A DNA stretch of 38,972 bases, taken from NCBI GenBank assembly GCA_900319695.1, contig ONPN01000022.1, positions 1-38,972 on the forward strand, in the 5' to 3' direction. Shown piece by piece: positions 15,733 through 35,250 of this stretch. Every line of letters begins with the position of its first letter. The first letter of the stretch is position 1. The notes below the pieces were generated by a model. The model was not told where the DNA came from, did not search any database, and saw only the letters and a list, made by a program, of their open reading frames with translations. This DNA comes from an uncultured Eubacteriales bacterium. Lineage in GTDB: Bacteria > Bacillota > Clostridia > Oscillospirales > Oscillospiraceae. Position numbers and translations under genes: made by a program.

Positions 15733-15799
15733 TTTCCATCTATCTCCTTTAAAAAATCCAGTGTTTTCAATGCTTTACGGGTTTTGCGATTTTGGCCTC

Positions 15800-15817
15800 T
15801 ACGCCATTTTTACGCCA
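15800..15817. repeat. Short direct repeats at the element end
   Basis: tacgcca occurs at 15800-15806 and 15811-15817, eleven bases apart, next to the integrase stop. Placement suggests arm-type integrase sites near the attachment site, but the other end of the element is outside the window. Confidence 0.3.
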
Positions 15818-15819
15818 AA

Positions 15820-17001
15820 TCAAACGGCTATACTCCGTTCAAACGCCTGCACGGCACCTGTGAGTGACTCGTCCGTGACATGGACATATCTGTCCATTGT
15901 CGTTTTGATGCTCGCATGACCAAGCAATTTCTGAAGTATCTTCGGCTGCATCCCACTCTCAATCGCGCGGGTTGCGTAGGTGTGCCGGAGCGCGTGCATA
16001 CAAAACCGTTCGATTCCAGCCTCGTCACAAAGTTTATAAAGATGCGTATCATAAGAGCTGTTCTTGGCAGGTTCTCCTGTGCGAAAATTTATAAACACAA
16101 GATCCCGCATTAAGAGGTATCTGGTATCACCGGTTCGCAAATCGACGTACTCCAATACCTGTGAGAGCAATTCTGATTCTTTCCTTGTCTCTCGCTCATT
16201 GTACGCTGCCCTTAAAACTTCATAGGCTCTGTTCGTGAGAGGGATTGTACGATAGCTGTGCTTCGTCTTGGGAGGCCCCGCCCGCCAGTAGCCGTCTCCG
16301 TGGCGGTACTCCAAGGATTTGTTCACTGTGAGCGTCCGCTTCTTCCAGTTGATCGAATCCCACGTCAGGCCAATCATTTCCGCGGTTCTCAGCCCGGTCT
16401 CCAACAGCAGCACATATTGCCGATAATTATGAGAACGCTTCGCTACCTCAAGAAAAAGCTTCTGCTCCTCGACGGTAAGAAAATGAATGTCATCTACCGC
16501 ACGGACGGGCTTCGTGTATCTGACACCATCCATCGGATGCTTCATAATAATATCGTTCATCACGGCAGCACGAAACATCGTGCCGATCGCAATATATGTC
16601 TGACGTATGGTGGAGCCCGCATAGACAGGTTCCATACGGTTGAGTATTGCCTTGCAGTGCATAGGCTTGACATCCGCGATCTTCATTTTGCCAATGACAG
16701 GCTGCGCATTGATAAGGTATCTCTCTGAATAATTTCTCCGCGTGTTGGGAGCAAGATCGCAGATGAGATTGTCCATCCAAAAACGATACCACTGATCGAC
16801 CGTCATATCCTCCGCTTTGGGAATACGACCATGCTTATCCTCATAGATCGCGTCGGCAAGCCAGTTGCGCGCTTCGGGAAGCGTTTCAAAATATTTCTCA
16901 GGGCGAGAGCCGTCTTTTGCATTATATCTGGCTGAGTAAAGACCGTCCTTTCTCTGGTAGATTCCTGTTCCGCATTCTCTACCTTTTAGATTTTTGCCCA
17001 T
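15820..17001 (-). CDS. Tyrosine site-specific integrase
   Basis: The 393-residue recombinase of the Tn916/phage integrase type should integrate and excise the element. The N-terminal arm-binding domain spans about 10-60 ([17 protein letters not shown]), the SAM-like core-binding domain about 68-165, and the catalytic domain 170-393. Catalytic residues visible are R205, H337-x2-R340, H362 and the nucleophile Y372. The start has AAGGAG upstream. The gene lies at the element's left end, reading outwards towards ychF, with an excisionase-like gene behind it and a terminator between them. Confidence 0.95.
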
Positions 17002-17029
17002 TACATTGACTCCTTTCTCTTTTTATTTG

Positions 17030-17056
17030 AAAAAAGAGTCCAATACAACTGGACTC
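17030..17056 (-). terminator. Terminator between xis and int
   Basis: A perfect 7-bp stem, gagtcca (17036-17042) with tggactc (17050-17056), is followed by six T on the minus strand (17030-17035). It sits 43 bases past the excisionase gene and would limit read-through into int. Confidence 0.75.
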
Positions 17057-17098
17057 ATTGTAACATACATCGCTCTTTTTCTCAATAGTGTTAGGGCG

Positions 17099-17299
17099 CT
17101 AAATCATGAGCTTGTTATGGATGTACTCTTCAAACTCCTTGCGCTTTACCAATTTTCGACTGCCGACGAAGAGAACAAAGGGACAATTCGGTTGTTTCAA
17201 CAGATTGTCGATCTTGTTAATGCCGATACTGCTGTACTCGGCAGCTTCCCTGATAGTCATTGTTACTTTCAAATTAATCGGTACTTTTTCTTCAATCAT
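17099..17299 (-). CDS. Excisionase-like small winged-helix protein
   Basis: The 66-residue protein has MTIREAAEYSSIGINKIDNLL, then GSRKLVKRKEFEEYI, the excisionase/MerR-like layout of Tn916 Xis. It should bend DNA and steer the integrase towards excision. The frame opens earlier, but ATG 17299 is chosen for the GAGGTG just upstream and for family length. It precedes int in the usual order. Confidence 0.85.
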   Translation of the reverse strand: MIEEKVPINLKVTMTIREAAEYSSIGINKIDNLLKQPNCPFVLFVGSRKLVKRKEFEEYIHNKLMI

Positions 17300-17323
17300 C
17301 AGATTCACCTCGCACCTCGACAA

Positions 17324-17361
17324 CAAAAATGCTCTCTGGCACACAATGCACCGGAGAGCAT
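17324..17361 (-). terminator. Terminator in the xis leader
   Basis: Arms 17329-17339 and 17351-17361 (11 bp, one G-U) are followed by T on the minus strand (17324-17328). It lies between a promoter-like sequence and the xis start, so it may act as an attenuator rather than a simple operon end. Confidence 0.75.
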
Positions 17362-17381
17362 CTTTTAATATTTGCAGTTTA

Positions 17382-17411
17382 ATAATAGCACATGACAAAT
17401 TGCGGAGTCAA
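17382..17411 (-). promoter_or_regulatory. Promoter upstream of xis
   Basis: Minus strand TTGACT (17406-17411), an 18-base spacer and TATTAT (17382-17387). The xis-leader terminator follows at once, so unaided transcripts would be about 50 bases long. Confidence 0.5.
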
Positions 17412-18295: not shown

Positions 18296-19270
18296 TTACG
18301 CTGCTCTTTGAAATCGGATGCCGTTGGCGCGGAGGGAGAGCTCCTGGGACAGGAGCTTGAGGGACTCAAACTCTTCGTCCAGTCCGTCCAGCTCGCGGCG
18401 GAGCACCTGTTCATAGTGGCGCTTCTTCCCCTCCAGGGCGCCGATCTTCATGACCCAGCGCTCCATGATGGCGGGGCTTTGGCTGCCGCTCTTGATGAGG
18501 TAGTCCGCACGCTCCTGGTATTCCGCGATCTCCTTCTTCACCGCGGCGTAGAATTCCTCGGTCATCTTATCCCGCTGCTTGGCATCGTCTATGATATAGA
18601 TGGAGTTTGCCATGAGGCGGGCTTTCGTTCTGTTGAGGCTGCTGAGGGCCTCCATGAAGTCCTCAAAGATATCCACCTTCTCCATGCTGTGCCGGGGGAC
18701 GAAGTAGAGATGTCCGTTGACGCTCATCTTCGTGGCCTCCAGCCCGCGGATGTAGTTGAGGCAGATGGTCTCGATCTGCTTGCGGTTGGCGCAGACCTGA
18801 TACAGCTCGAACAGCTCCTCGGCGCGGCGGCAGTAGGCGGCCGCGTCCACATCGCTGTCATAGGCCAGATTGTCATAGCTGAACAGGCCGCTCTCTTTGT
18901 CGAAGCTGATGTTCGCCAGCTTCTCATACTGATTGGTCTCGCGGTTCAGCGTCTCCTTAACCAGCTCCCTGGACAGGACGCGCGCGGTGTGCTCATTGTC
19001 GCGGCAATAGATCCGGTAGATCTGCTGCATGCCGCCGTGCTTGACCACGATACGCTCCTTAATGTCCCCGGTGGCGCTCTTGAAGGCGTCGGAGGCGGAG
19101 ACGCGGCGGTCGCCGGCGTAGTAGATGCCCATGCCCGTGCAGAGCTCGGTCAGCTTTTCCTTGTCGATCAGGATGTCGGAGAGGGAAAAATACAGGAGCT
19201 TGCCCAGCATGTTGTTCTTGTCGCCGGACGCTACGCCCAGCATGTCGTTCATGGAAATAACGTCGCTCAT
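18296..19270 (-). CDS. Unknown protein at the end of the element operon
   Basis: I do not recognise this 324-residue protein with confidence. It appears soluble. It has an N-terminal mixed region (LLYFSLSDILIDKEKLTELC), a central domain with HGGMQQIYRIYCRD and HLYFVPRH, and a C-terminal helical, coiled-coil-like tail from about 225. The frame opens with a TTG at 19276, but ATG 19270 lies eight bases after AGGAGG and is preferred. It is the last gene of the operon that encodes primase and Rad52, so a role in element DNA metabolism is plausible but unproven. It ends in Ala-Ala. Confidence 0.8.
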   Translation of the reverse strand: MSDVISMNDMLGVASGDKNNMLGKLLYFSLSDILIDKEKLTELCTGMGIYYAGDRRVSASDAFKSATGDIKERIVVKHGGMQQIYRIYCRDNEHTARVLSRELVKETLNRETNQYEKLANISFDKESGLFSYDNLAYDSDVDAAAYCRRAEELFELYQVCANRKQIETICLNYIRGLEATKMSVNGHLYFVPRHSMEKVDIFEDFMEALSSLNRTKARLMANSIYIIDDAKQRDKMTEEFYAAVKKEIAEYQERADYLIKSGSQSPAIMERWVMKIGALEGKKRHYEQVLRRELDGLDEEFESLKLLSQELSLRANGIRFQRAA

Positions 19271-19283
19271 TTTCAAATCCTCC

Positions 19284-19532: not shown

Positions 19533-20594
19533 TTATGCCGCGGCGCGGGCGTGGTAATAATCGTCCACGCCCTTGTACGCCGGGCTCCATACATATTTGG
19601 AATAGCGGATGTTCGGCAGGCTGCCGAGTTCCTTTCGGATCTCCAGCACCGCGTTTCGGACATGGGGATTCGTATTCTGGTCCATGTCCATCGCCTCCAC
19701 CAGCTCCGTGACGCCGAGCTCCTTCACCGTCTCTTTGAGACCGTGGATCGCGTTGACGCCGCCGATACAGACGAACAGCGCGTCGTTGTCCAGAAAACTC
19801 GCCACGTCGCCCTTGAGGGGGCCTTCCGTCAGATATGCCCGTTTGCTCGCGGTGTTGCCGGTCACATGAATCCAGGAATAGCTGCGTGTGCCGTTGGGCA
19901 TGCCCCGGCTGGAGAGCCAGCGGTACTTGCGGTCCGGGTCGGCCTCATCGTCGAGGCGGATCTTTAAACCCTGGATCAGCCCGTCTTTGTTGCGGACGGG
20001 GATCAGGAAGCCGCTCGGCCCGGTGACCGTCCACTCGCCGTAGCGGGTGCGGAAGCCGGGGATGCCCTCCAAATCGTGGCCGCAGCCTTTGAGCAGGCTT
20101 GCCAGAAGTCTGCGTCCGGCGTCCGTCTCCGGCATGGACCGGTACTCGTTCCGTTCGATCCGTTCCTCCGAAAGGCCGCGGCCGAGCAGGTTTTCCCGGT
20201 GCCGGTCAGACAGCGTCAGCAGGTGCAGCATGTCCGTGTAGATCTCGCTGCGCTCCGCAAGAGCGCGGGGCGCGGCCTCTGTATATTGGGAGTCGGGCTG
20301 CTTCGGCATGGGATAGACATTGCCGCCCTCCTCAAGTTCCCGAAACGCCTCCAGATTGTCCAGCCCCTTCACACGGGCATACAGCGTGACGCTGTTGCCG
20401 TGCGCGCCGCAGAGGACGCAGCGGTATTGATCGGTGGAGGTGTTCAGAAACAGATGGTATCTTCCCACACCGTGGTCACCGCAGAAGGGGCAGCTCGCCT
20501 CAACCTCGCCCCGGTGAAGGGTACGGGGGTTGAGGACAAGCCCGCACCTGTGAGCCGTGTCTACGATGGGGATTTTCTTATAGGCGCGGCCCAT
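19533..20594 (-). CDS. Primase-like protein with CHC2 zinc finger and Toprim domain
   Basis: The 353-residue protein probably makes primers for element replication. A zinc-ribbon of the CHC2 type lies at about 30-75 with C35-x2-C38 and C59-x2-C62. The middle (about 110-220) is primase-like. A Toprim-type region follows with E257 (LTEGPLKGDVA) and the acidic motif AMDMD at 301-305. It is half the length of DnaG and lacks a helicase-binding tail, as in plasmid and phage primases. It is encoded next to an SbcC-like ATPase and a Rad52-like protein. It ends in Ala-Ala-Ala. Confidence 0.85.
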   Translation of the reverse strand: MGRAYKKIPIVDTAHRCGLVLNPRTLHRGEVEASCPFCGDHGVGRYHLFLNTSTDQYRCVLCGAHGNSVTLYARVKGLDNLEAFRELEEGGNVYPMPKQPDSQYTEAAPRALAERSEIYTDMLHLLTLSDRHRENLLGRGLSEERIERNEYRSMPETDAGRRLLASLLKGCGHDLEGIPGFRTRYGEWTVTGPSGFLIPVRNKDGLIQGLKIRLDDEADPDRKYRWLSSRGMPNGTRSYSWIHVTGNTASKRAYLTEGPLKGDVASFLDNDALFVCIGGVNAIHGLKETVKELGVTELVEAMDMDQNTNPHVRNAVLEIRKELGSLPNIRYSKYVWSPAYKGVDDYYHARAAA

Positions 20595-20606: not shown

Positions 20607-22469
20607 TTATGCCGCCATGGGCATTTCGTTTAAAATGGGTTTCACCGCCCGGATATTCAGATCGGCGTTTCGGACACACTTGGCCATAAGCACCTGTCCT
20701 GTGGGCCTGACGTTGTTGAGATCGTCCACCGACTCCATGTTGTCCACAAAGACGGGATAGTTTCGCCCGGTCAGGCGCTTCATAAGCTCGGAGACCTCCA
20801 TGCCGGCGCGGATCTTCTCCGAGAGGGAGAGCCGGTCGTAACGGCGGCCTCTGTACTCGAAACGGAACACGTCCTTCACCTCGCCCGTGCTTTTCACCAC
20901 GTCGTAGAGGGAGATGGACACACGGTTCATCTGCAGCTCCGCGAGGGTGAGCTCCACGCGCTTGGCGATGTACTGCAGCAGGCAGCCGACGGCCTCCTTC
21001 TGTTCGGCGATCTGCTTTTGCGCCGCCTGGATCTTGGCCTCAAATTCTTCCTCCGCGGGGATGACCGTGTTCTTCAGGGCGGAGAGCTCCGCCTCGATCT
21101 GCCGCAGCTCCTCGCCGCAGGCTTTCATCCGGTCATATTCCTCAGCACTGAGATTCCCGTACTCCAGATCGGAGGTGAGCGTCTGCATTCGCGTGCGAAG
21201 CTCCTCCAACTGATTCCGGCGCTGCGCGGAGGCGCGGCTGCCGCTTTCCAGCACCCTGCCGCGCTCCTCGGTGAGCTCACGGACAGACTGCTCCAGCTTT
21301 GCCACGTCCTCCTCCTTGAATTTCTGAAACGTCTCCTTGGATTGGGCGTCCATTGCCTTCAGCTCCTCCAGTTGCGCGCGCTGCTCCTTGCCCTCGGCAA
21401 CGATGCCGCTGACGCTCTGCTGGAAAGCCTTGCGCACGACGGGAACGTCTTCCTCGGACACCGCGCGTCGGCAGGTAGGACAGACGAAGCCGGGGACGAT
21501 GGCCTTGCCCGCGCTGACTTCGGCGTTATACTTCGCGCCGAGAGCTTTCACGCGCTCGGTCGCCGCCGCGATCGCCTGCGTAAACTTGGATTCATAGACG
21601 CTTGCCGAGCGTTCCGCCAGCTTTCGCGCCTGCTCATAGAGCCGCGCGTCCAGCTCATCCAGCCCGCTCTCGTCGCTGTTGTCATTGAAGAGTTCGCTGT
21701 ACTGGGCGCTCAGATCGGTGAGGGTGCTCTCCAGCTCAGCGGTGTCGATCCCGGCGTAGCGTTTTGCCTCCAGCGCCTGTTTTTCTTCCTGAATGCTGCT
21801 GCGCTTTGCTTCCAGCTCCGCGCGCCTGGTCTGTCCGGTCTTCTGCTGTGAGAGGGCCAGATCCTGCTGACCCTGGAGATAGATCACAGAGTTCTCCAGC
21901 TCCCGGATATCCTTCCGAAGCTGTTTGACGCGCCCCTCAGGGGACAGAAGCGTTTCCGCCGGAAGCCTCTGCCGGATGGGGTCGGACAGCTCCGCGAGCA
22001 CCTTTTCCTGCGGAATCATCGGGAGATAACGCTGCAGGAGATTCTTCCCGTCCTCGCCCAGCTCCTCAATGAAGTACAGGGGGTTGAAGATCGAGAGGAA
22101 CACGTCCTTTTCGCCGAACATCTCCGTCAGATCAAGCTGGCGAAGCTCCTGACCGTCATAGACGATCCCGGTCCTGCTGCCATTGTGGCTGCGCGTCAAC
22201 TCGTGCGAAACGCCCTTGTCGTCCATGAAGCGCATGGTGACGAAAAGCTCCGGATCGCTCTCGCTGTGCAGCCGGTCGATGTTCCGCTCCGCGAAGAACG
22301 GGAGGCCGGTGACAGCGTAGGCGATGGCGTCCGCGATGCTGGACTTGCCGCGGCCGTTGCCGCCGGTGATGACCGTGGGATTGCCGAAGCTCAACTTCGT
22401 GGGCTGCGCGAACGACTTGAAGCCGGACAGACGAAGTCCTGTGATCTGAAAACCGCTGATCTTTTCCAT
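20607..22469 (-). CDS. SbcC/Rad50-like coiled-coil ATPase
   Basis: The 620-residue P-loop ATPase has the SMC/Rad50 plan. Walker A GGNGRGKS is at 36-43. A first coiled coil (about 170-320), a zinc-hook-like CPTC at 330-333 and a second coiled coil (about 345-500) follow. A degenerate ABC signature (LSLSEKIRAG near 547-556) and a Walker B-like VFVDNMES come next, where the usual catalytic Glu after Asp is Asn. Rad50/SbcC proteins act with a nuclease on DNA ends; no sbcD is seen. Its place next to the Rad52-like gene suggests a recombination or end-processing role for the element. AAGGAG lies six bases before the ATG. Confidence 0.88.
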   Translation of the reverse strand: MEKISGFQITGLRLSGFKSFAQPTKLSFGNPTVITGGNGRGKSSIADAIAYAVTGLPFFAERNIDRLHSESDPELFVTMRFMDDKGVSHELTRSHNGSRTGIVYDGQELRQLDLTEMFGEKDVFLSIFNPLYFIEELGEDGKNLLQRYLPMIPQEKVLAELSDPIRQRLPAETLLSPEGRVKQLRKDIRELENSVIYLQGQQDLALSQQKTGQTRRAELEAKRSSIQEEKQALEAKRYAGIDTAELESTLTDLSAQYSELFNDNSDESGLDELDARLYEQARKLAERSASVYESKFTQAIAAATERVKALGAKYNAEVSAGKAIVPGFVCPTCRRAVSEEDVPVVRKAFQQSVSGIVAEGKEQRAQLEELKAMDAQSKETFQKFKEEDVAKLEQSVRELTEERGRVLESGSRASAQRRNQLEELRTRMQTLTSDLEYGNLSAEEYDRMKACGEELRQIEAELSALKNTVIPAEEEFEAKIQAAQKQIAEQKEAVGCLLQYIAKRVELTLAELQMNRVSISLYDVVKSTGEVKDVFRFEYRGRRYDRLSLSEKIRAGMEVSELMKRLTGRNYPVFVDNMESVDDLNNVRPTGQVLMAKCVRNADLNIRAVKPILNEMPMAA

Positions 22470-22487: not shown

Positions 22488-23405
22488 TTACGCGGCCTGA
22501 TCCAGAATCTCGAAGCTCTCCAGATAGTAGAACACGACGGAGTCCTTCTGCTTGAGGGTCTTGCGGACGTTGTAGAGTCTGGCGTCACGGCGAAGCTCCG
22601 GGTGGGTGCCACGGGTGTAAGCCAGCAGCTTCTTTCCGTCCGGGTCCTGAAGCATGAGGCTGGTGTTTTCGCCGCTCATGCCCTTCTGCACCTTGACGTC
22701 CGTCACGGTGTATTCCCAGGCGTGAGACTCCGGCGCTTTCCTGTACTGCGCGAGATCCACGACCTTGCCGCCCTTTTCTTCTTTCTCGGCGGCCTTCTCC
22801 TGTGGTTTAGACGTCGGCTGTGCAGGCCCAGCTTTTTCCTCGGTACCGCCGGGCGCTCTCTGTGGGGTGAGCAGAGACTGCACGCCGCCGGGCGCGGCGG
22901 CCTTGAGCTTCAGCTTGGCCAGCATGTCCATGTAGGCTTTGTCCAGCTTGGGACGCTCGGAGGGCTTGATGATATAGCTCTTGCCCTTCTTTTCGATCCC
23001 GACAAAGACCGTGTCCATGTTGTACAGGACGCGGCCGATGCCCCACTGGACGGCGGCGCGCTTCATGGAATCGCTGAGTCCGCCCTTGACCGGCTCAATA
23101 TCCGAGTCCTCGGCCCCGTCCCATTTGGTGATGAAGCCGCGGCCCTCGAAGTAGATGGAGATACCACAAATCTGCGCCTCCCGCTTGCCGGTGCCGTGCC
23201 AGGGCTGGTACTCGTTGTACCAGTTCTGCGGGCCGACGACCTCATCCAGCCGGTTCTGGATCGCGCGGTTCGTCACATAGGGAACCGCGATACCCTGCAT
23301 GCTGCTCTCAAAGGCCATCTGAATCCGCCATTCCAGATCCTCCGCGGCGAAGGGCATGGCCAGCGCCGCCTGGATCTCATTCGCCGTCTTCTTCGTTTCT
23401 TCCAT
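22488..23405 (-). CDS. Rad52/Rad22-family single-strand annealing protein
   Basis: The 305-residue protein carries the Rad52-type annealing domain over its first 170 residues: NRLDEVVGPQNWYNEYQPW, CGISIYFEGRGFITKWDG, and the hallmark KGGLSDSMKRAAVQWGIGRVLYN. Such proteins anneal complementary single strands in phage and plasmid recombination. A Pro/Ala/Glu-rich linker (about 185-230) and a small C-terminal domain follow. ATG 23405 is chosen for the GGGAGG seven bases upstream; the gene starts 29 bases inside the end of the E2-like gene. It ends in Ala-Ala. Confidence 0.9.
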   Translation of the reverse strand: MEETKKTANEIQAALAMPFAAEDLEWRIQMAFESSMQGIAVPYVTNRAIQNRLDEVVGPQNWYNEYQPWHGTGKREAQICGISIYFEGRGFITKWDGAEDSDIEPVKGGLSDSMKRAAVQWGIGRVLYNMDTVFVGIEKKGKSYIIKPSERPKLDKAYMDMLAKLKLKAAAPGGVQSLLTPQRAPGGTEEKAGPAQPTSKPQEKAAEKEEKGGKVVDLAQYRKAPESHAWEYTVTDVKVQKGMSGENTSLMLQDPDGKKLLAYTRGTHPELRRDARLYNVRKTLKQKDSVVFYYLESFEILDQAA

Positions 23406-24090
23406 AGATACCTCCCACAAAGTCTCCCAAGGTTTTCCCGTTGGGGATGAGGACGTCCGTGTAGTAATAGGCCGGGTCCTTGTCCTTCAGATGCTCCATC
23501 AGCTCTGTATGCCCCAGCTTCAGCTTGTTGCGGCCGGGCGAATACATGTCGTCGTTGTCCGGGATACCCAGCAGATAGCGCGGGAAATTCACCAGCGCCG
23601 ACTGCTTTTTATAGCGCGGCAGCACATTGTTCCCCGTGCATACGCGGGAATCCTCGTAGACGTTGGAAAAAGGATAATGATACATGAGCGAGGCAGGCGT
23701 CGGTTTTTCATCCGCCACCACGCCGAGGGTGCAGCCAGCCACTCTGCCGGTATCCAGCAGACGAATGCCGAACACCAGGCGCGGGATTGGGAAATTGAGG
23801 TACTCCGCATCCTTGTAGGTCATGTCCGCCCGCAGCGCCGGGTTCCAGAGAACGAAGGTTTTCTCTCCTTTCCCGATAGTGACGGACAGACAATGCTCCG
23901 GGAGCAGTCCGGTCTCAACCGTTTCGCTGTTCCTGTAACTCTCATTGAGCATGAAATACAGGTCGACGGGAGAGATCTCCTTAAAGGAAATTGCCCCGTC
24001 GCGCTTGCGTTCCTCCACAATGATCTTGCCCGAATGGGGAGAGATGCGGAGGCAAATGTCGTTGCCGTAATCTGTGTTTTCCGCTGCCAT
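23377..24090 (-). CDS. E2-like protein of the PRTRC protein B family (Prok-E2 family D)
   Basis: The 237-residue protein matches the PRTRC-B / Prok-E2_D layout by my recognition of conserved segments: TFVLWNPALR, IPRLVFGIRL, the PTPASLMYHYPFSNVY stretch, then VCTGNN. C151 is the candidate thioester cysteine. In this superfamily E2-like proteins accept a ubiquitin-like modifier or substrate adenylate from a ThiF-type E1. Both a ThiF E1 and a JAMM peptidase are encoded four to five genes upstream in the same operon. ATG 24090 shares its A with the previous stop (TAATG), and GGAGG lies in the end of that gene. A start seven codons earlier is possible but less likely. Confidence 0.75.
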   Translation of the reverse strand: MAAENTDYGNDICLRISPHSGKIIVEERKRDGAISFKEISPVDLYFMLNESYRNSETVETGLLPEHCLSVTIGKGEKTFVLWNPALRADMTYKDAEYLNFPIPRLVFGIRLLDTGRVAGCTLGVVADEKPTPASLMYHYPFSNVYEDSRVCTGNNVLPRYKKQSALVNFPRYLLGIPDNDDMYSPGRNKLKLGHTELMEHLKDKDPAYYYTDVLIPNGKTLGDFVGGIYGRNEEDGE

Positions 24091-24653
24091 TACGCGGCCT
24101 CCTCCATACAATGTTTCGGAAGAGAAACGATCTTGTCCGACCGTTTCTCTATAATCTGTTTCATGTGTTCGTTTTCCCGGATAAGGTAGTGCATCAGGTC
24201 TGTGAGCGCGATCACCAATCCCCCGGGCTCCCAGTATCCCTCCGCAAATTCAAGCTGAATCTGCGGGCTGTTGCCTTCATAACGGATCGTCATGTCAAAG
24301 ATCCCGCAGTTGCGGTCAGACAGGAAAAAGGTGACGATGTCCTCAAATCTCCTTCTGACAGCCTGAACCGAACAGGGATGCGCCTCCATGAGCTTTGCGC
24401 TGAATTCGAGATATTCATCGAAAACAGTATCATAGATACACATAAGTTCTGACCCGCTCATCTCATCATATTCCGAGTAGCAGTCATCAAAAATTTCTTC
24501 TATAGAATAGTAGATGAATTCCAGAATCTGTTCCGTCGAAAACTGTGTCTCGCCCGCGACAAGCCGCGCCGCCCGTTCCGGTCTGTACATCTGCACAAAG
24601 CGCAACAGTCTCAGGACGCCGAGAATGTCGTACTCATAATCGTTGTCGTACAT
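24090..24653 (-). CDS. Unknown acidic protein
   Basis: This 187-residue, very acidic protein is not recognised. The N-terminal half is helical (LGVLRLLRFVQMYRPERAARL) and the second half has strand-like segments (CGIFDMTIRYEGNSPQIQLEF). It overlaps the E2-like gene by one base, so the two are translationally coupled. A role as an E2 partner or target is speculation. It ends in Ala-Ala. Confidence 0.75.
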   Translation of the reverse strand: MYDNDYEYDILGVLRLLRFVQMYRPERAARLVAGETQFSTEQILEFIYYSIEEIFDDCYSEYDEMSGSELMCIYDTVFDEYLEFSAKLMEAHPCSVQAVRRRFEDIVTFFLSDRNCGIFDMTIRYEGNSPQIQLEFAEGYWEPGGLVIALTDLMHYLIRENEHMKQIIEKRSDKIVSLPKHCMEEAA

Positions 24654-24662
24654 AGGCAGCCC

Positions 24663-24962
24663 TCAGAAAAAAGCGCGCTTCTCCCGAGGCGAGGCATGGA
24701 TGAGCTTGAGCATCTTGTTGAAGCCCTTTTGCCAGCCCTGTTCCATACCCCTGTAATGATCTTCCGACCACGCCATGGCGGTATTACACAGGTCGAAAGC
24801 GTTCAGATCCAGCTTTGTGAGGTCGATGGTCTCGCCTCTGCGCAGCCTGTCGAACACTTCCGTTTGCAGATATTCGCTGTGCTGCGGCGTTTCGCAGTAC
24901 GGGATCTTTTCCGGGACGGAATAGAGAAGCTCCGTGAAAATCTCAGGATGAAATTCAAGCAT
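24663..24962 (-). CDS. Small unknown protein
   Basis: A 99-residue protein starting MLEFHPEIFTELLYSVPEK, not recognised. Its ATG overlaps the previous stop by eight bases (ATGCTTGA), a coupling signal that supports this start over the longer frame, which is a shadow of the upstream gene. Confidence 0.7.
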   Translation of the reverse strand: MLEFHPEIFTELLYSVPEKIPYCETPQHSEYLQTEVFDRLRRGETIDLTKLDLNAFDLCNTAMAWSEDHYRGMEQGWQKGFNKMLKLIHASPREKRAFF

Positions 24963-25494
24963 GGCTTTCCCCCAGATCGACGACGCGAACCACGCAGATG
25001 GCGTAATCCGCCACATGGCTGATGATGTGCTGTTCCTCCGCTTCAGAGATAAACGCCTTGCCCTGCTGGGTGTAGTACACGCCGTAATCCGGCAGCACGA
25101 TGCCGCCCTCCGCGAGCACCTTCCAGGCCAGGTGGAACATGAGCGATTCATTTTCCTTGTCGATGACAATCGGAATAACATGCTCGCCGGTGTCCGCCTT
25201 CTCAATCTCCTTGACCAGAAAACCGAGGTGGAAGTCCGTGGCCTTCTGCTGCGAGTGCTGGGCCTCGGCATAGAGATTGAGGAAGTTCAGGGGATCTTCT
25301 CTTCCCAGAACGATGCCGAAGGCGTTTTTGATCTCGCTGTCCCAGGCCTTCTGTACGGGGAAAAAGCTCCCGTAGTATTTGCCCAGGTACTTGGTGAGCA
25401 GGCCGGTCACGGTTGCCCACACCTGTGTTTTGAGGCTGTCGCCGTTCTGTCTCTCATCGACCGGAACGACGACCGCCAGGTTGTTGGATTTCAT
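24955..25494 (-). CDS. Unknown protein
   Basis: The 179-residue protein is not recognised. It looks soluble, with mixed helices and strands (NNLAVVVPVDERQNGDSLKT at the start, HVIPIVIDKENESLMFHLAW in the middle). AGGAGG lies five bases before ATG 25494. It is nine bases behind the methyltransferase gene in the same operon. Confidence 0.75.
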   Translation of the reverse strand: MKSNNLAVVVPVDERQNGDSLKTQVWATVTGLLTKYLGKYYGSFFPVQKAWDSEIKNAFGIVLGREDPLNFLNLYAEAQHSQQKATDFHLGFLVKEIEKADTGEHVIPIVIDKENESLMFHLAWKVLAEGGIVLPDYGVYYTQQGKAFISEAEEQHIISHVADYAICVVRVVDLGESHA

Positions 25495-25503
25495 AGTGTC
25501 CTC

Positions 25504-26898
25504 CTATGTCAGTGACTTGAAGCCCTGGGGCGTCAGAATGTTGAAGATCATCTTGTTTGTGACGACCTCCCGGATCTCCGCGCCCATGTGCCTTCCCTCC
25601 GTGCTGAACTTGTCCTCGCTTTCCGTATGGACGACTTTGACGATGCGACCCTTGATGATATGCGGATGCTCGCACTCGATGAGGCCGTTGATCATGCCGG
25701 AGCCGCCGATCAGACCGATCTGCCCGATGGAGAGCGGCAGAAGCGGATGCTTTACGCCGCTGTCGAGCTCGCTGCGGGCCATGAGCTGTTCAAAGCTGTT
25801 CGACCGGCGAAGCTGCTGTTCCAGCTCCCGCTCGTTGAAGATCTCGCCCTTGAAAACAGAGACCTCCGTCTGTACAGCGGGCAGCGCATAGCGCCCCTCC
25901 GAAAGCTCAGCGAGGCTTGGGATCGTTTCGGGACTCACGGCGTAGCGTTCCAGCCAGAGACTGTCGCCGGGCTCCGCCGCCTTGCGCTTGCGGACGCCCA
26001 TGACGGCTACCTGGCGGAAGCGTTTGAACTCCGCGTCCGTGAAGCGCCAGACCGTGAGATCCTCGAAGTTATCCACCAGCACCCGGCAGATGTCCGGGGT
26101 GAGACGGTAATACGGGATCACATAGATCAGCAGGCCGCCCAGCATGAGGGTATGGATGCTCTCAATCAGGAAGCGCTTCTCATGGCGGGATTTGCCGCCA
26201 TTGTTGTTCAAAACGGACAGATACGGGGGATTCAGAAAAAGCAGATGGAAGACGTCATGGCTGACGGTGCTGTGGAAGAAGCTGCCGAAACCCACGCGAT
26301 GGAGCCGCGTCTGGGCCTCCTCAGCCCTGCTTTGATCCAGCTCCACGCCGTAGGTATAGCAGTTGTTCCCCTGGGCGAGCTGCCGGAGGGCCTTGCCGCA
26401 ACCGCAGCAGGGGTCCAGCAGGTTGGTGGTGACGCCGTCGGGAAAGGTAATGCCCCGGAGCATCAGGTCGATGTTGTCCGGGTCCGTGGGATAGTAGCCC
26501 AGCTTGATCTGGTTCATGAGGCGGCCCACCACAGCGGCGTTGACGGTATCTCCCGCGGGGATGCGCGCAGCAAAGCCCTGCAACACGTCATAGACGCTTT
26601 TGTAGTTGGTACTCATAAGATCAAAGCGGGCAAGCCCCCGGCCGAGCTTACCGGCCAGACCGGCAAGCTCGTATTCCTCCACTTCCATCAGCAGCAGTCT
26701 CGCATCGTAGAGCGCCTTTTCGAGAGCGCCCTTTGCTTTCTTCAGCTCCAGATAACTGTCCTTCGCGGCGGCCATATCCGCCTGCCGGTACTTCTCCACC
26801 TTGGCGCGGCTCATCACCATCGCCTTGGACTGCCGGAGGATGCTGTTTCTGAGCTCCGCCAGCCGTTCGACAACGTAGTATTTCTCCTGCGCTTCCAT
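25504..26898 (-). CDS. N6-adenine-type DNA methyltransferase (DUF6094-like)
   Basis: In this 464-residue SAM-dependent methyltransferase, motif I reads DPCCGCGKA (162-170), the SAM-binding acidic residue lies in YGVELDQ, and the catalytic motif NPPY is at 223-226. An N-terminal helical region (1-90) and a C-terminal domain surround the core. The overall look matches the DUF6094 methyltransferases of clostridial mobile elements. No restriction enzyme gene lies next to it, so it may be a solitary methylase protecting or marking element DNA. It is three bases from the preceding stop. Confidence 0.85.
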   Translation of the reverse strand: MEAQEKYYVVERLAELRNSILRQSKAMVMSRAKVEKYRQADMAAAKDSYLELKKAKGALEKALYDARLLLMEVEEYELAGLAGKLGRGLARFDLMSTNYKSVYDVLQGFAARIPAGDTVNAAVVGRLMNQIKLGYYPTDPDNIDLMLRGITFPDGVTTNLLDPCCGCGKALRQLAQGNNCYTYGVELDQSRAEEAQTRLHRVGFGSFFHSTVSHDVFHLLFLNPPYLSVLNNNGGKSRHEKRFLIESIHTLMLGGLLIYVIPYYRLTPDICRVLVDNFEDLTVWRFTDAEFKRFRQVAVMGVRKRKAAEPGDSLWLERYAVSPETIPSLAELSEGRYALPAVQTEVSVFKGEIFNERELEQQLRRSNSFEQLMARSELDSGVKHPLLPLSIGQIGLIGGSGMINGLIECEHPHIIKGRIVKVVHTESEDKFSTEGRHMGAEIREVVTNKMIFNILTPQGFKSLT

Positions 26899-26901
26899 GC
26901 C

Positions 26902-27606
26902 TTACGCGGCCTTCTGCGCGATGGTTTCCGTGGCGAAGTCGAAGACGGGCACGTTCTCTTCCGGCGTACCGGGGATCAGGCGCAGGGTATAGCCCGCCTC
27001 CCGCGACAGCTTGAAAAGGCCGACGATGCGGTTGAGCTCTTCGTCTTCCTCTTTTGCCGCGGAATCCGTTTCCTCTTCTTCAAGGGGAGGCTCCATGGGA
27101 TCGTCGTCCACCACGCTTTTCCTGTAGAACGGTTCAAAGTCCGCGTCCAGCACCTCGCCCTCCGCGGGCTTTGCGAAGAGCTTTGCGCGAAGGGAGCGGA
27201 AGAAGGAAGCAATGAGCATCCCCAGCAGGCTTGCATGGACGCGGGGCAGGTGGATGATCTCTTCGGCCTTGGCCTCATCCACGTCGCTCAGGGCCACGGT
27301 CAGCTTGCCCGTCTCCACATAGGCGGCGGAGAGGAAGCAGCTCACAGCCAGCGACTCGGAGGCATAGACCTCCGGGGCGTCGATCCGCTTCGCTGCGGCG
27401 CGGACGCAGACGACCGCGGCGGATTCAATCTCCCCGATGCTGATGTCATCGGCATAGACGGTGCCGGCGCTGATAACGCCTTTGCCGCTGATGCTTTTGG
27501 CCTTGACACCATAGACCACCTTCAGGCAGCCGTCTACGACCAGGTTTTCGGTCACCAGGGATTCGTACTTTACGGTTTCTCCCGCGGGGATATATACAGT
27601 TTTCAT
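26902..27606 (-). CDS. Beta-helix-like (bactofilin-like) protein with acidic tail
   Basis: The first 110 of 234 residues show short repeated strands with frequent Val, Gly and Ala (ESLVTENLVVDGCLKVV, ISGKGVISAGTVYADDISIG), the look of a right-handed beta-helix such as bactofilin or FapA. A hydrophobic helix at about 128-145 and a long acidic stretch (about 165-195) follow. There is no signal peptide. The function is unknown. It lies between ThiF and the methyltransferase with gaps of 13 and 3 bases. It ends in Ala-Ala. Confidence 0.7.
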   Translation of the reverse strand: MKTVYIPAGETVKYESLVTENLVVDGCLKVVYGVKAKSISGKGVISAGTVYADDISIGEIESAAVVCVRAAAKRIDAPEVYASESLAVSCFLSAAYVETGKLTVALSDVDEAKAEEIIHLPRVHASLLGMLIASFFRSLRAKLFAKPAEGEVLDADFEPFYRKSVVDDDPMEPPLEEEETDSAAKEEDEELNRIVGLFKLSREAGYTLRLIPGTPEENVPVFDFATETIAQKAA

Positions 27607-27619
27607 GATGATCTTCCTT

Positions 27620-28387
27620 TCATGCCGATTTTTTCTTTATGGTTTGTTTTTGCAGAACGGTCTGCATCCTCACGGTATTGGTGGAGAAATCCGTCTGTCG
27701 GACAAGGCTCTCCCCGTGGGTCAGGATGTTGTAAACCATATCTACCACGGCGGTGGCCGCAGTGATGTTGGCCGCCATGCTCTGGGGATTGGACTGGGCC
27801 GCCTCGGCGCAGGAGAGCTCCGTGGGGAACTTGTCCGTTGCCTTCAGAAGCTCCGGGTATACGCCGCCGATGGGCTTAAAAAACGTATGCCCGTTTTTCC
27901 TCACACCGCAGACCACCTGACCGGAGAACTCGCCGTTGCCGCTGTCGATGTAGATGAGGTCCTTCGCCTGACAAAACGCCTGGTGGCAGAGCTGCCGGGA
28001 CTTGTTGTTGTCCACGGCGCCGATCAGGATCACCATCTCCTTGACAAAGCGGTAAATGTGCGGGTCAAGCTGCCATTCTCTCGGTGTGATGAGCGCCTTG
28101 AGCACTTCGAGATTTTCCACGAAGTTCGGGACATACTCGGCCTCCATGCCAAAGACGGAGGCGTAGCGCTCCGCCAGGACGCGGGCCTTGTTCTCGCCCA
28201 GATCGGCGGGGGAAAAGTTTTGCCGGATCAAATTCTTCTGCTCCACGATGTCACCGTCGCAGAGGATGAACCTCGCCGGACGGCCCAGCGCGTACAGCAG
28301 GCGGTAGAGGTGCGGCGCGATATGCCCGCCCGTGCCGCCGGCGCCGAGCATCACAATCTTGACCGGTACGTCAATGGGATACTTCAT
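27620..28387 (-). CDS. ThiF/MoeB-family E1-like adenylating enzyme
   Basis: The 255-residue E1-like enzyme should adenylate the C-terminus of a ubiquitin-like protein. The Rossmann loop is GAGGTGG (15-21). The ATP-binding residues D44, N52, R55 and K67 lie in LCDGDIVEQKNLIRQNF and GENKA, D126 in GAVDNN, and C193 is the candidate catalytic cysteine (ELSCAEAAQ). It resembles the ThiF of PRTRC cassettes. ATG 28387 is chosen although the frame opens 25 codons earlier, because the fold begins there and GAGG precedes it. It overlaps the JAMM gene by 17 bases. Confidence 0.9.
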   Translation of the reverse strand: MKYPIDVPVKIVMLGAGGTGGHIAPHLYRLLYALGRPARFILCDGDIVEQKNLIRQNFSPADLGENKARVLAERYASVFGMEAEYVPNFVENLEVLKALITPREWQLDPHIYRFVKEMVILIGAVDNNKSRQLCHQAFCQAKDLIYIDSGNGEFSGQVVCGVRKNGHTFFKPIGGVYPELLKATDKFPTELSCAEAAQSNPQSMAANITAATAVVDMVYNILTHGESLVRQTDFSTNTVRMQTVLQKQTIKKKSA

Positions 28388-29678
28388 CGTCCAGATCCTC
28401 AAACATGCTCTTCCGTCTGGAGGCCAGACGGGACTCCTTCTTCTTGCAGGTGACATGCTCATGCCAGTCCTTCGGATACTCCCGCTCCAGCCCCTCGATT
28501 ACCGTCGCCGGGTCGATGGGGACGAAGCTCCCGCCGCAGAAGATGCGCGCCTTGATTTCCGGGAAGAAATGGTCGAGCTCGCCGAGCACCAGATACAGGC
28601 CCGTCTCGCTCTCATCCCAGTCGTCCTCCGCCGAGAAGAACGCCTCCATGCTGTTGTGGCTGTGGATATCCGCGTAACGGATGAAGCGGCTCTCATCGTC
28701 GTAGGGGCAGTCCCGAAGATCGGCGTCCAGATGGGATTTCTGCACCGTCTGCTTGGGGACATAGGCGAAAAACTCCTGCTCCAGCTTGCCCCAGTAGATC
28801 AGGGCCAACGCCTCATACTCCTCATGTTCCTGCATGAAGGAGCGGAAGAAGGCGATGATCTGCCCGATCAGGGACAGCGGGATCAGGGGCAGAGCCGGGA
28901 TAAACCCGGCCCTTGCCGACTGAAACTCAGTCACTTTGTTTTTTGGGGCAATAAACTCACCCTGTTCTGTCTTCCTCATCTCATAGAATTTGCCGTCATT
29001 CGCGGGGAATAGGCAAATCACTTTGTCCGACTTCCGGGCCTCCTCGGCGCTGCCGAAAACGCCCTTGTATGCCGCGTTGCCCTTCGATTTCATGGTGACT
29101 CTGGGCTTCACGAAGCAGTCCGGATTCTTGTCCTTGGATTTCCTCAGCATCTCAAGGAATTCGCGGGAACGCTCCACGCTCTCCTTCATGGAGGCGATGG
29201 TCGTGCCCTCCGGGTCCTTCACATCCTTGCGGATCGTGCCGTACTCGATGCTCCAGGTGACGTACTTGCCCGCCTCCAGATCCGTGAAGTCCTCGGACTT
29301 GCGGATGCGAAGCTCCTCAAAGGTCATGGAGGTGTCCTCGATGGTCTCCTTCGCGCCCTTGTGGTAGAAGATGGGCAGCTTGTCATAGAGCCCCTTCTGG
29401 GTGTTCTCCTGGGTCTTGGCCTCGACCGCGGCAGAGATCGGATCGGGAATCTCTTCCTTCTTCTCCGGCTTTGCCTTCGGTGCTTTCTTCTCCGGCGCGG
29501 GCGGGGGCGTTTCCGCTGCCTTCTGCTCCGCGGGGGCCTCCTGCTTCTCGGCTGTCGGTTCCTGCACGGGTTCCGGGGTCTCAAAGGGATTCTCGCTGCT
29601 TGCTCCACCGCCGAAGATCGCCTCAATGTCAAGGCCGTCGTCCTCCAGTTCGGTGAATACGCTGTCGCTTTCGTTCAT
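28371..29678 (-). CDS. JAMM/MPN+ metallopeptidase with N-terminal extension
   Basis: The JAMM zinc motif is complete in the last third of this 435-residue protein: H339-S-H341-x7-S349-x2-D352, with E287 or E289 as the upstream catalytic Glu. Such peptidases release ubiquitin-like proteins or process their C-termini. A disordered Pro/Ala/Glu-rich stretch (25-85) and an unrecognised domain (about 90-250) precede it. Only a short hydrophobic patch (258-275) is seen, not a clear membrane segment. It is the first gene of the operon, behind a leader ORF and terminator. ATG 29678 has GAGGAG six bases upstream. It overlaps the E1 gene. Confidence 0.88.
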   Translation of the reverse strand: MNESDSVFTELEDDGLDIEAIFGGGASSENPFETPEPVQEPTAEKQEAPAEQKAAETPPPAPEKKAPKAKPEKKEEIPDPISAAVEAKTQENTQKGLYDKLPIFYHKGAKETIEDTSMTFEELRIRKSEDFTDLEAGKYVTWSIEYGTIRKDVKDPEGTTIASMKESVERSREFLEMLRKSKDKNPDCFVKPRVTMKSKGNAAYKGVFGSAEEARKSDKVICLFPANDGKFYEMRKTEQGEFIAPKNKVTEFQSARAGFIPALPLIPLSLIGQIIAFFRSFMQEHEEYEALALIYWGKLEQEFFAYVPKQTVQKSHLDADLRDCPYDDESRFIRYADIHSHNSMEAFFSAEDDWDESETGLYLVLGELDHFFPEIKARIFCGGSFVPIDPATVIEGLEREYPKDWHEHVTCKKKESRLASRRKSMFEDLDDEVSH

Positions 29679-30265: not shown

Positions 30266-30300
30266 GAATGATAAGATTATTTCAAAGCGTGGAGGACACC

Positions 30301-33211: not shown

Positions 33212-34804
33212 TCAAACTGCCAATTCGCTGATCACGCCGCGGACGATATCTTCGCCACAGAGCTGGCTGGTCCTGTAGATCTTCTGGCAGAAGGGCGTCA
33301 GGCTGAATTCCATGCCGGGGCAGCCCATGTCGAGCAGGATACCGGTCACAGTAAAGTTCTTTTCCGCCTGCTTTTGCTGAAAGATTTCCGCAAAGGCTTC
33401 CGGCAGCTCACACTCGCCGTCCGTCAGAAAGACTATGTCGGCGTTCTCAAATCCGCCTTCGCCCATGAGCTTCAGGGCCTCGGTCAGCGGGGTTTCAAAG
33501 TTCGTGCCGCCGCTGAGAAAGGTCTCCGCCGCGCGCAGCTTATCCTCTTGGCCGTATTCTCCCGGAAGAAAAACATCGACCTGTACGCTGGATTGGGACG
33601 CGAAGTGGATCAGCGCGAACTTGCGCTTCCCCTCCTCCGCGATCTCCAGCAGCGTCATGGCCAGCGCTTTCCCCCAGGCGGCGGGATCGCCCTCGGTGGA
33701 CGCGGATTCGTCCAGACAGCAGATGACGTCGCCCATGACCTTGGTGACAGGCTCACGGCGGTGGTACTGTTTGATCTGCCTCTGTTGGTATTTCCGCAGA
33801 AACAGGGGAACCGTCTGCGGCATGGCCAGCATAGAGAGCTCCGAGGTCAGCGCGCGGCTGATGTCATTGCCGAGCTCCAGCGAATAGGTCTCACCCCGGC
33901 CGTAGACGTATCCGTTCTTCCGCCCCTGGGATAATAGCTCCCGAAAGCGGCCGAGATATTTGGACACATCCCGCAGGGCGGGGCTTTTCCGCACTCTTGA
34001 CAGCAGCTCCATGTTCATCGGCGTTCGCTTGCATTCCGCGGGGTCGTCGCTCCAGGAGGAGAGGATTGTGTTGACCTCCTCCGCCCGCTCCTTTGCCGAA
34101 TGTATGGCGGCGGACAGGGCTTCGGACAGCTCGTCCTTTTTCTGAAGCATTGTGTTTTCTACGATTTTGGACACCGCTTCGACCTGCCTCTCCTTTCGCA
34201 CAAGCTGATTTGCCGCCGAAAGGATTTCCTTTTGCAGCGGCTCGGACGGAGCCTTGCCCGAAGGAGTCTGCTCCAGCAGATCGCTCAGCTTTTGGGCCGC
34301 GTCTTCTTCGGCGTGTTCCAGCTTTTCCAGCGTGCTCATGGAGCCCTTGTCTCCGCCGAGATCTGAGAGCAGATCGTCCAGATTTTCCGCCGTGCGGGAG
34401 ATAAACTCGCTTGCCGCCTCGTAGGCCAGCAGCTCGCGACCCTCGCAGACATTCTTCAGCGTCGGGTAGTCCTCCTGCCCGGTCACGCCGTCCAGCAGAC
34501 GGGTGTTGAATTCTCTCGCCGCCGGTGAGAGTTTTTCCTCCGGGTTTCTCCGCTGTGTCAGGGAATAAAAACTCTGAAAAATATCCTGCGACAGCGCGGG
34601 GAAGGATTTGAGTTTTTCTGAGGCAATCGCCTCAACCGTGTCTAGTTCCGTATCCTCCTGCCGCATGTCCGAATAAATGCTGTCGTCCAGCATGGTAGAG
34701 CGGAGCACGCGGTCGGTCTTTTCCTCCTTCCGGCGGGCAAGTGCTTGCAGTCTGTCCCATGAGGCGGACATGACCGCCTCAAAGCTGTGAAAGGGATTGA
34801 TCAT
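33212..34804 (-). CDS. VWA-domain protein, partner of the MoxR ATPase
   Basis: A long helical N-terminal region precedes a C-terminal von Willebrand A domain (about 355-530 of 530) with an intact MIDAS: DESAS at 365-369, the Thr in GGTNFETPL, and the Asp in LTDGE. This is the ViaA/CoxE-like plan in which a VWA protein works with a MoxR-type AAA+ ATPase, here encoded two genes upstream. ATG 34804 is chosen for the GGAGG five bases upstream rather than the frame opening 16 codons earlier. The target of the pair is unknown. Confidence 0.87.
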   Translation of the reverse strand: MINPFHSFEAVMSASWDRLQALARRKEEKTDRVLRSTMLDDSIYSDMRQEDTELDTVEAIASEKLKSFPALSQDIFQSFYSLTQRRNPEEKLSPAAREFNTRLLDGVTGQEDYPTLKNVCEGRELLAYEAASEFISRTAENLDDLLSDLGGDKGSMSTLEKLEHAEEDAAQKLSDLLEQTPSGKAPSEPLQKEILSAANQLVRKERQVEAVSKIVENTMLQKKDELSEALSAAIHSAKERAEEVNTILSSWSDDPAECKRTPMNMELLSRVRKSPALRDVSKYLGRFRELLSQGRKNGYVYGRGETYSLELGNDISRALTSELSMLAMPQTVPLFLRKYQQRQIKQYHRREPVTKVMGDVICCLDESASTEGDPAAWGKALAMTLLEIAEEGKRKFALIHFASQSSVQVDVFLPGEYGQEDKLRAAETFLSGGTNFETPLTEALKLMGEGGFENADIVFLTDGECELPEAFAEIFQQKQAEKNFTVTGILLDMGCPGMEFSLTPFCQKIYRTSQLCGEDIVRGVISELAV

Positions 34805-34863
34805 AGCTGCCTCCGTTTTCAGCAGGCGGGAAGGCCGAAGCCTCCCCGCCATGATTCTGATGT

Positions 34864-35250
34864 TTACTCAAAAGCGCCGGGGTTGAAGTCGTCCGGGATA
34901 CCGAAGCCGTCGCTGCCTTTCTTGCCGTCGGGCTTGGAGTCGCCGAAGTACATGTTGTCCACGACGACCTCCGTGCTGTAGCGCTTGTTGCCCTCCTTAT
35001 CTGTCCAGGGGCGGATCTGCAGGCGGCCGCTGACAACGGCCATGCGGCCCTTGGCGAAATACTTGGCGGCGAAGTCCGCGGTCGAGCGCCAGGCCACGCA
35101 GTCGATGAAGTCCGTCTCCTTCTCGCCGTCCCTGCCGCCGAAGTCGCGGTCGCAGGCCAGCGTGAACGAGGCCACAGAAACGTCAGACTGCGTCGTGCGC
35201 AGCTCCACGTCGCGGGTCAGTCTTCCCATGAGCACAATGTGATTCAACAT
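34864..35250 (-). CDS. ssb: Single-stranded DNA-binding protein
   Basis: The 128-residue OB-fold SSB has LNHIVLMGRLTRDVELR, then FIDCVAWRSTADFAAKYFAKG and SGRLQIRPW. It would coat single-stranded element DNA. The tail is short and ends in IPDDFNPGAFE, not the usual DDxIPF tip, so binding to host SSB partners may be altered. AGGAGG lies eight bases before the ATG. Its place between the MoxR and VWA genes is unusual. Confidence 0.93.
   Translation of the reverse strand: MLNHIVLMGRLTRDVELRTTQSDVSVASFTLACDRDFGGRDGEKETDFIDCVAWRSTADFAAKYFAKGRMAVVSGRLQIRPWTDKEGNKRYSTEVVVDNMYFGDSKPDGKKGSDGFGIPDDFNPGAFE

Follow-up and report, generated by a model that had tools for sequence, protein, structure and literature searches.

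Organisation of the cassette

The window analysed here, a single contig of 38,972 nucleotides (ONPN01000022.1, our C63) from the 2.8 Mb assembly GCA_900319695.1 of an uncultured Eubacteriales bacterium, contains an integrated element which carries a ubiquitin-like E1/E2/JAMM cassette. The element genes run on the minus strand, from the integrase and Xis genes to the contig end. The cassette consists of a JAMM protein (28371..29678), a ThiF-type E1 (27620..28387, with the start placed at a conserved Met) and an E2 of the Prok-E2_D/PRTRC_B-like type (23377..24090; Pfam Prok-E2_D 1.6e-13). The JAMM protein is probably a fused precursor, in which a tail (residues 1-96) is followed by a predicted ubiquitin-like, PRTRC_C-like domain (residues 97-200; 29079..29390) and by a candidate JAB-N domain and the JAMM peptidase (residues 201-435). 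The Lys199-Gly200 junction (29079..29084) is the predicted C-terminus of the modifier and, at the same time, the predicted point of JAMM cleavage.

The order of transcription starts with the dnaN sliding clamp gene, of which the part encoding the C-terminal 125 residues is present before the contig end (38594..38972), and continues with several small genes, a MoxR-type AAA ATPase (35274..36650; bpMoxR 1.9e-37), SSB (34864..35250; 3.2e-32), a VWA protein (33212..34852; 4.4e-8), the JAMM protein and the E1. Between E1 and E2 lie the genes of a conserved protein of unknown function (26902..27606), whose position is kept in many loci and for which no Pfam or NCBIfam family exceeded its cut-off, a DUF6094 methyltransferase (25504..26898; Pfam 3.8e-174) and three small conserved proteins, namely p5 (24955..25494), p98 (24663..24962, start picked by comparison, ending in FF) and p7 (24090..24653, by eye possibly a PRTRC_F-like partner). 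The E2 gene is followed by those of a Rad52-type annealing protein (22488..23420; Pfam 1.9e-15, PHROG 1097 1e-47), an SbcC/Rad50-like ATPase (20607..22469; AAA_23 1.5e-14), a primase-like protein (19533..20594; PHROG 47, 7.8e-13), p79, a DUF6744 protein (18296..19276; 2.4e-116), a sigma-like protein, Xis and the integrase.

The first-pass annotation had described the JAMM, E1 and E2 genes as embedded in a replication and recombination operon, interleaved with the methyltransferase, Rad52, SbcC-like ATPase and primase genes. This arrangement was confirmed, and profile matches agree with the assigned identities of the three enzymes; the DnaN clamp at the window edge had been missed.

Active sites

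The predicted catalytic residues are strictly conserved, as had been expected from the window alone. Cys193 of E1 (codon 27809-27811) is present in 66/66 aligned rows, Cys151 of E2 (codon 23638-23640) in 38/38 rows (alignment A6), and the columns of the JAMM motif H339-x-H341-x7-S349-x2-D352, read from the sequence at 28623..28664, are invariant in 46/46 rows (alignment A5). JAB-N of the type 6d operons has a conserved Arg and a conserved Trp; an Arg preceding the JAB domain (R139 of the model) is invariant in A5, and no Trp occurs among the conserved columns of that stretch. Judged by the Prok-E2_D match above the cut-off and the invariant Cys, the product of 23377-24090 is an E2-like protein. 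The JAMM profile gave five matches to solved structures, all with E of 0.12 or worse. A comparison of two E2 alignments by hhalign reached 100%, and it was set aside because both alignments contain the window E2 and that of locus L101 and are not independent.

The ThiF type of the E1 would also suit a sulphur-carrier system which uses thiocarboxylate chemistry and tags no protein. The presence of a JAMM and of an E2-like protein whose Cys is invariant speaks against such a system, as does the lack of any rhodanese or sulphur gene among the scanned window proteins, and we consider it highly improbable.

A predicted ubiquitin-like domain at the N-terminus of the JAMM protein

An AlphaFold2 model of the JAMM protein built from 46 sequences had a mean pLDDT of 86.9 and a pTM of 0.54. 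Residues 97-200 form the succession beta-beta-alpha-beta-beta-alpha-beta (pLDDT of the block 81-95) and are confidently predicted to be a separate domain with its elements in ubiquitin's order, as read from the listed elements. The only internal segment with pLDDT <50 comprises residues 197-202 and spans the Lys-Gly joint. The relative placing of the two domains is undefined because of the pTM of 0.54.

The joint itself is conserved. Gly200 is kept in 56/56 aligned fusions (open reading frames of 330 amino acids or more; 51 distinct rows) and Lys199 in 55/56, the sole exception (L042) being a broken frame; the residues which follow Gly200 differ in kind and length among the clostridial fusions. 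Shorter clostridial JAMM reading frames are either cut by contig ends (L077, L080, L085) or broken (L042). When aligned by hhalign, the clostridial domain matched modifiers of Bacillota at 93.2% (E 2.9e-7, 31 columns) and PRTRC_C at 88.3% (E 2.9e-6, 38 columns), and the Bacillota modifiers matched PRTRC_C at 90.5% (E 1.3e-6, 60 columns); controls against the E2 profile gave 0.2% and 0.4%. The clostridial JAMM profile also matched the modifier gene of L110 (24.2 bits).

In other Bacillota loci a related domain is a separate gene beside that of JAMM or E1. Outside the clostridial block, stand-alone modifier genes were found in L027, L101-L103, L105, L109-L112, L114 and L115. The JAMMs of L102-L105 are without the clostridial N-terminal domain, and in L102, L103 and L105 a small gene precedes the JAMM gene. 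The stand-alone modifiers mostly end in ..AKG, ..KKG, ..NKG, ..KAG or ..KMG (C-termini VTGGAKG, VTGAKKG, NFQKKG, SNFKNKG, AYGAAKG, VKAAKAG and FEKMG), and those of L102 and L105 have a short tail after KG. Six of eight canonical PRTRC_C proteins end at Gly (five KG, one RG), while those of L108 and L132 continue past AKG or TKG. Fusions of modifier and JAMM recur in L106, L116-L122, L136 and L137, with KKG, SKG, TKG or KNG at the joint. A terminal Gly was present in 9/9 stand-alone modifiers from stretches in which, as far as these had been fetched, no JAMM was found (L027, L101, L107, L110-L112, L130, L131, L133), whereas the four with residues beyond Gly (L102, L105, L108, L132) all adjoin a JAMM. 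Although the numbers are small, this distribution fits trimming of the tail by the JAMM.

Since the related domain is encoded separately elsewhere and mostly ends in ...KG, the fusion is likely to be a precursor which requires cleavage. A precedent for maturation of a bacterial modifier by a JAMM is the action of BilC on BilA (PMC11354881). No modifier had been named in the first-pass annotation; according to the alignments and the model, the JAMM protein itself seems to carry it as its N-terminal domain.

Alternatively, the ubiquitin-like domain might be a fixed regulatory part of the JAMM protein which is never released, with the JAMM removing another modifier. This would agree with the retention of the fusion in all 56 aligned rows and with the description of JAB-N as an N-terminal domain which already belongs to this JAMM class (PMC1779556). 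The related domain nevertheless stands alone in other loci, mostly with a free ...KG end, and the low-confidence joint combines an invariant Gly with following residues of variable kind and length. We therefore find a permanently attached domain unlikely and prefer a modifier released from the fusion by cleavage.

Two other assignments of the modifier were considered and rejected. A register obtained with MAFFT, in which residues 140-200 are the whole modifier, is disfavoured by the model and by hhalign, which point to a domain starting at residue 97. The small proteins p5, p98 and p7 were discarded because they matched no family above its cut-off and because look-alikes of p98 and p7 (by eye) adjoin a separate modifier gene elsewhere. 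By eye, the last two residues of p98 and its look-alikes are hydrophobic or aromatic (FF, LF, FI, in some cases DDFI), and in Bacilli the look-alikes precede E2.

Conservation of the block

Matches to the E2 were found in 7/200 genomes of the family and 6/391 of the class, the genome of the window being included in both. The comparison was based on 81 loci selected by E2, 79 from one scan of named genomes and two (L001, L002) from a viral collection; a second scan of viral contigs yielded the same two loci again. The set was not thinned for close relatives. Many gut Clostridia share the block JAMM-E1-methyltransferase-E2-Rad52-SbcC-primase-DUF6744 in synteny. The JAMM and E1 genes adjoin in this order in 55/56 loci which show both, E2 and Rad52 are at most 300 bp apart in 64/69 loci, and the orders SbcC-primase (49/49) and primase-DUF6744 (45/45) are without exception. 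In the 50 loci with over 7 kb visible on the upstream side of E2, JAMM was found in 46, E1 in 46 and the methyltransferase in 43; in the 56 loci with over 5.5 kb visible downstream, Rad52 was found in 48, SbcC in 48, primase in 45 and DUF6744 in 42. The E1 of L060 was scored as a miss, because its reading frame is continuous with that of the JAMM. The co-occurrence of the genes in other genomes, one of the two points on which the first-pass annotation had staked its proposal, was thus observed. The gene order is different in L101-L106, which come from a metagenome-assembled genome (MAG) of Clostridiales, Paenibacillus, two Robertmurraya, a Thermosipho MAG and Alicyclobacillus.

Two loci deserve separate mention. 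A single open frame of 741 amino acids in L060 (4745-6967) runs from modifier through JAMM to E1 and may be either a genuine fusion of all three or an error in the frame. The Bacillus phage KLEB27-3 (217 kb; L113, 3678-6726) encodes a relative of the E2, a JAMM and an E1 consecutively (58, 84 and 215 bits), and no modifier was recognised there.

This fixed order bears on the question of whether the cassette is anti-phage or anti-plasmid defence cargo resembling Bil, Bub or type II CBASS. Similar sets of E1, E2 and JAMM are defence systems, and defence is also the context of Bil. Such a role could be supported by that comparison (for Bil, PMC11354881) and by weak, partial PADLOC matches of E1 to E1-E2 (1.6e-7) and BilD (0.0028). 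The methyltransferase resembles mad2 (1.4e-15) and the SbcC-like ATPase mad3 (2.8e-11), both over partial length. E2 and JAMM, however, matched nothing in PADLOC up to an E of 0.01, and no CD-NTase was found among the operon proteins scanned. The constant order in which the genes are interleaved with those of Rad52, SbcC, primase and, in many cases, DnaN is also unlike exchangeable cargo. A defence function is in our opinion quite improbable, and a system which belongs to the replication and recombination machinery of the element agrees better with this arrangement.

Sliding clamp genes near the cassette

The C-terminal part of DnaN in the window is 92% identical to the full DnaN of L123, the element of the nearest relative, which matches Pfam DNA_pol3_beta (4.6e-15) and whose contig continues the synteny. 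Seven stretches around extra clamps were inspected; the order DnaN>MoxR>SSB was found in L123-L126, and in L129 DnaN follows E1. DnaN lies after E1 in 15/53 loci which show the interval between E1 and the methyltransferase (the match in L062 being weak, 28 bits). Ten DnaN candidates representing both arrangements all had a clamp-domain match in Pfam, those of L001 and L018 being below the cut-offs. Plasmids of Cytobacillus, Niallia and Halobacillus (L118, L121, L136) carry the run Rad52>dnaN>two small genes>E2>Ub-JAMM>E1. In Alicyclobacillus sp. TC some 2.3 kb separate dnaN from the E2 gene that follows it, and in Azospira and Sulfuricystis dnaN directly precedes PRTRC_E>C>..>B>A>ThiF. Clamp genes adjoin these cassettes in four arrangements and two phyla (Bacillota and Pseudomonadota). 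On a Lysinibacillus plasmid (L116, 16365-19185), the E1 gene overlaps dnaX (gamma/tau), which is followed by the gene of delta'.

Among plasmid records, 44 carried the E2-D; at least 22 of the 40 listed also occur among the 60 listed of the 344 plasmids with dnaN, the base rate being 344/72,556 plasmid records, some of them chromosome-sized. In at least 10 E2-D plasmids dnaN and the E2 match are no more than 3 kb apart, and five of these are near-identical Cytobacillus plasmids.

A second connection with the clamp may be seen in the modifiers outside the clostridial block. Their N-terminal tails are charged (by eye) and contain QLSLF, QLNLF, QMDLF, QTDIF and the like, which resemble the clamp-binding consensus QL[S/D]LF or QxxLF given in PMC12309361. 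QxxPhiF occurs within the first 60 residues of 12/19 modifiers, whereas 5000 rounds of shuffling gave 0.2 on average and never more than 3. In the background it was found in 6/275 open reading frames, of which one is apparently a modifier fusion for which a different start was taken. The Halobacillus fusion, which is outside the counted set, likewise has QTDIF.

Similar motifs were noticed in PRTRC_E. Among eight proteins (that of L135 seen by its end only), three end in ...ELF (Rhodoferax, Azospira, Sulfuricystis), that of Tunicatimonas holds QADLF and that of Parabacteroides QIRMF, all of which resemble clamp-binding motifs; the PRTRC_E of L107, L108 and L131 end otherwise.

The clamp genes might merely be clustered in large elements, and true conjugation might be directed to another substrate, such as Rad52, the SbcC-like ATPase, the methyltransferase or a relaxase. 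Rad52, within the 300 bp already mentioned, is a very constant neighbour of E2, DnaN is not universal, and the clamp motif is absent from the window proteins, all of which would favour another substrate. The repeated adjacency in four arrangements and two phyla and the motif in 12 of the 19 tails, on the other hand, speak against simple clustering. A substrate unrelated to the clamp is a possibility to be taken seriously, if not a probable one; action at the clamp is the reading we prefer.

Proposed function of the system

Comparative sequence analysis demonstrated the predicted parts of the system, their conserved active sites, the fusion and the invariance of its junction, as well as synteny and a clamp neighbour which recurs. 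Our preferred reading, which we hold to be about as likely as not, is a ubiquitin-like conjugation and deconjugation system that belongs to the replication and recombination machinery of a mobile element, with the clamp as its likeliest site of action. The modifier would be synthesised as the leading domain of the JAMM protein and freed by a cut after Gly200, made by the JAMM in cis or in trans, which would leave a ...KG C-terminus. The E1 would then adenylate the Gly of the modifier, take the modifier onto Cys193 and pass it to Cys151 of the E2, which would attach it to at least one element protein at the DNA; the JAMM may also remove it from conjugates. The likeliest site would be the sliding clamp with its clients, that is DnaN, Rad52, SSB and primase of the same element.

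The first-pass annotation had suggested the replication proteins themselves as the target. Genomic context supports this suggestion and allows the presumed target to be narrowed towards the clamp. The observation made in that annotation was confirmed and its interpretation partly supported. The recurrent neighbourhood of clamp, Rad52 and SSB, taken together with the clamp-binding-like tails on the modifiers of many relatives, makes this a specific and testable proposal. The fusion of the ubiquitin-like domain to the JAMM would provide the modifier which the clostridial form otherwise lacks, and it allows a single cleavage point to be predicted exactly.

Several results weigh against this proposal. 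As to the clamp, 38/53 intervals between E1 and the methyltransferase hold no DnaN, the extra-clamp stretch L127 has no gene of the block and L128 has MoxR alone, and the genome of L092 has a single DnaN only. The tail of the window modifier reads LDIEAIFG, in which the Gln is absent, and QxxPhiF was found in 0/17 window proteins. The count of 12/19 was made after the motif had been noticed, and the 19 sequences are related. The co-occurrence of at least 22 E2-D plasmids with dnaN is a raw count in which plasmid size is uncontrolled. As to conjugation, none of the columns of A6 that are invariant or nearly so is a His downstream of the E2 Cys, two E2 profiles had no sequence-level match among solved structures, and in L044, L081 and L100 the E2 is kept and JAMM and E1 were undetectable across more than 7 kb upstream. 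As to the modifier, its ubiquitin fold is based on the order of the elements and on partial profile alignments of 31-60 columns. Pfam gave no ubiquitin-like match in the whole JAMM protein, nor did NCBIfam in its residues 91-206 or in either of two separately encoded modifiers. The listed matches of the fold search mainly span model residues 160-303 and none of them is ubiquitin-like; this coverage leaves the ubiquitin-like domain uncovered and is not evidence against such a fold.

Boundaries of the element and other features of the window

The integrase and the Tn916-type Xis (15820..17398, minus strand; Phage_integrase 2.2e-30, Tn916-Xis 1.5e-28) mark the end of the integrated element, the genes of which extend to the contig end. 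The left part of the window is chromosomal, with YchF (14659-15732), LepA, PTA and QueH. The integrase gene directly adjoins ychF (14659-15820), a possible attachment site. A chromosomal gene at 1314-5003 encodes a protein of 1229 amino acids with seven FMN-binding stretches and an FAD-binding domain. Between the VWA and JAMM genes, an open reading frame of 496 amino acids without a Pfam match lies on the plus strand (30268-31758); among the searched loci it is present only in the nearest relative, L028.

Comparison with known systems

The closest known relatives are the PRTRC cassettes, or the type 6d operon of Iyer et al. (2006), with which the window shares a JAB with an N-terminal domain, a ThiF-type E1, a family D E2 in which the Cys is conserved, a PRTRC_C-like modifier with Gly at its end, small partner proteins and the association with mobile elements. 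The window differs from them in that the modifier, instead of standing alone, is joined to the JAMM at an invariant Gly, in that the E2 is without the conserved downstream His, which Iyer et al. (2006) call absolute in this E2 class (PMC1779556), and in the fixed order with Rad52, SbcC-like, primase and DUF6744 genes plus the clamp. The window proteins are also below all NCBIfam PRTRC equivalog cut-offs (PRTRC_A 43.3 of 101.8 bits, ThiF 101.7 of 144.75 bits, B 42.4 of 131.45 bits). As it departs from PRTRC in the free modifier, the downstream His and the cut-off scores, the locus is best read from its sequence as a divergent PRTRC-like (Iyer 6d) variant and not as a member of PRTRC.

PRTRC cassettes had been described in the first-pass annotation as known from proteobacterial elements together with ParB-like proteins, an obvious one of which the clostridial version was said to lack. 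The first statement is too narrow, since Table 1 of PMC1779556 lists the type 6d operon for Bacillus, Bacteroides and cyanobacteria, and Bacillota plasmids carry related cassettes. No ParB was indeed found among the scanned window proteins, which do not include every open reading frame of an element cut by the contig end. ParB is not universal in PRTRC loci, being present in 3/8 non-Bacillota loci and lacking from the annotated stretch of the other 5/8. A ParB is encoded somewhere in 12/13 genomes, a count over whole genomes which does not bear on proximity to the cassette.

In the literature covered by the searches, which included few subscription journals and no preprints, we saw no paper linking PRTRC-type systems with the sliding clamp and, in the same scope, none with a tested function for the 6d-type cassettes listed in 2006 (PMC1779556).

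The cassettes with E2-D on Bacillota plasmids resemble the window in having E2, the Ub-JAMM fusion and E1 in a run with Rad52 and dnaN. They differ in that E2 stands before Ub-JAMM and E1 and is directly joined to them, with no methyltransferase between as annotated, and in that the modifiers have the clamp-binding-like tail motif. Bil (BilABCD) shares with the window an E1, an E2, a JAMM and a modifier matured by the JAMM (PMC11354881). It is built of other protein families, and BilA has two ubiquitin-like domains.

Finally, the arrangement invites a comparison with eukaryotes. In the ubiquitylation and SUMOylation of PCNA, a ubiquitin-type modifier and an E2 are linked to the sliding clamp and to Rad52. 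The window has a bacterial beta clamp and an E2 of a different family, so that the analogy is one of context only. By this analogy, a JAMM-matured modifier placed on the clamp, or on Rad52 or SSB there, might switch between modes of replication (copying versus annealing-based recombination) as a counterpart of PCNA ubiquitylation, an idea which is tentative and, on balance, doubtful. If replication proteins are indeed conjugated, ubiquitin-type control of clamps would go back further, or recur more widely, than has been assumed, and bacteria may have a counterpart of the eukaryotic tagging that steers DNA copying.

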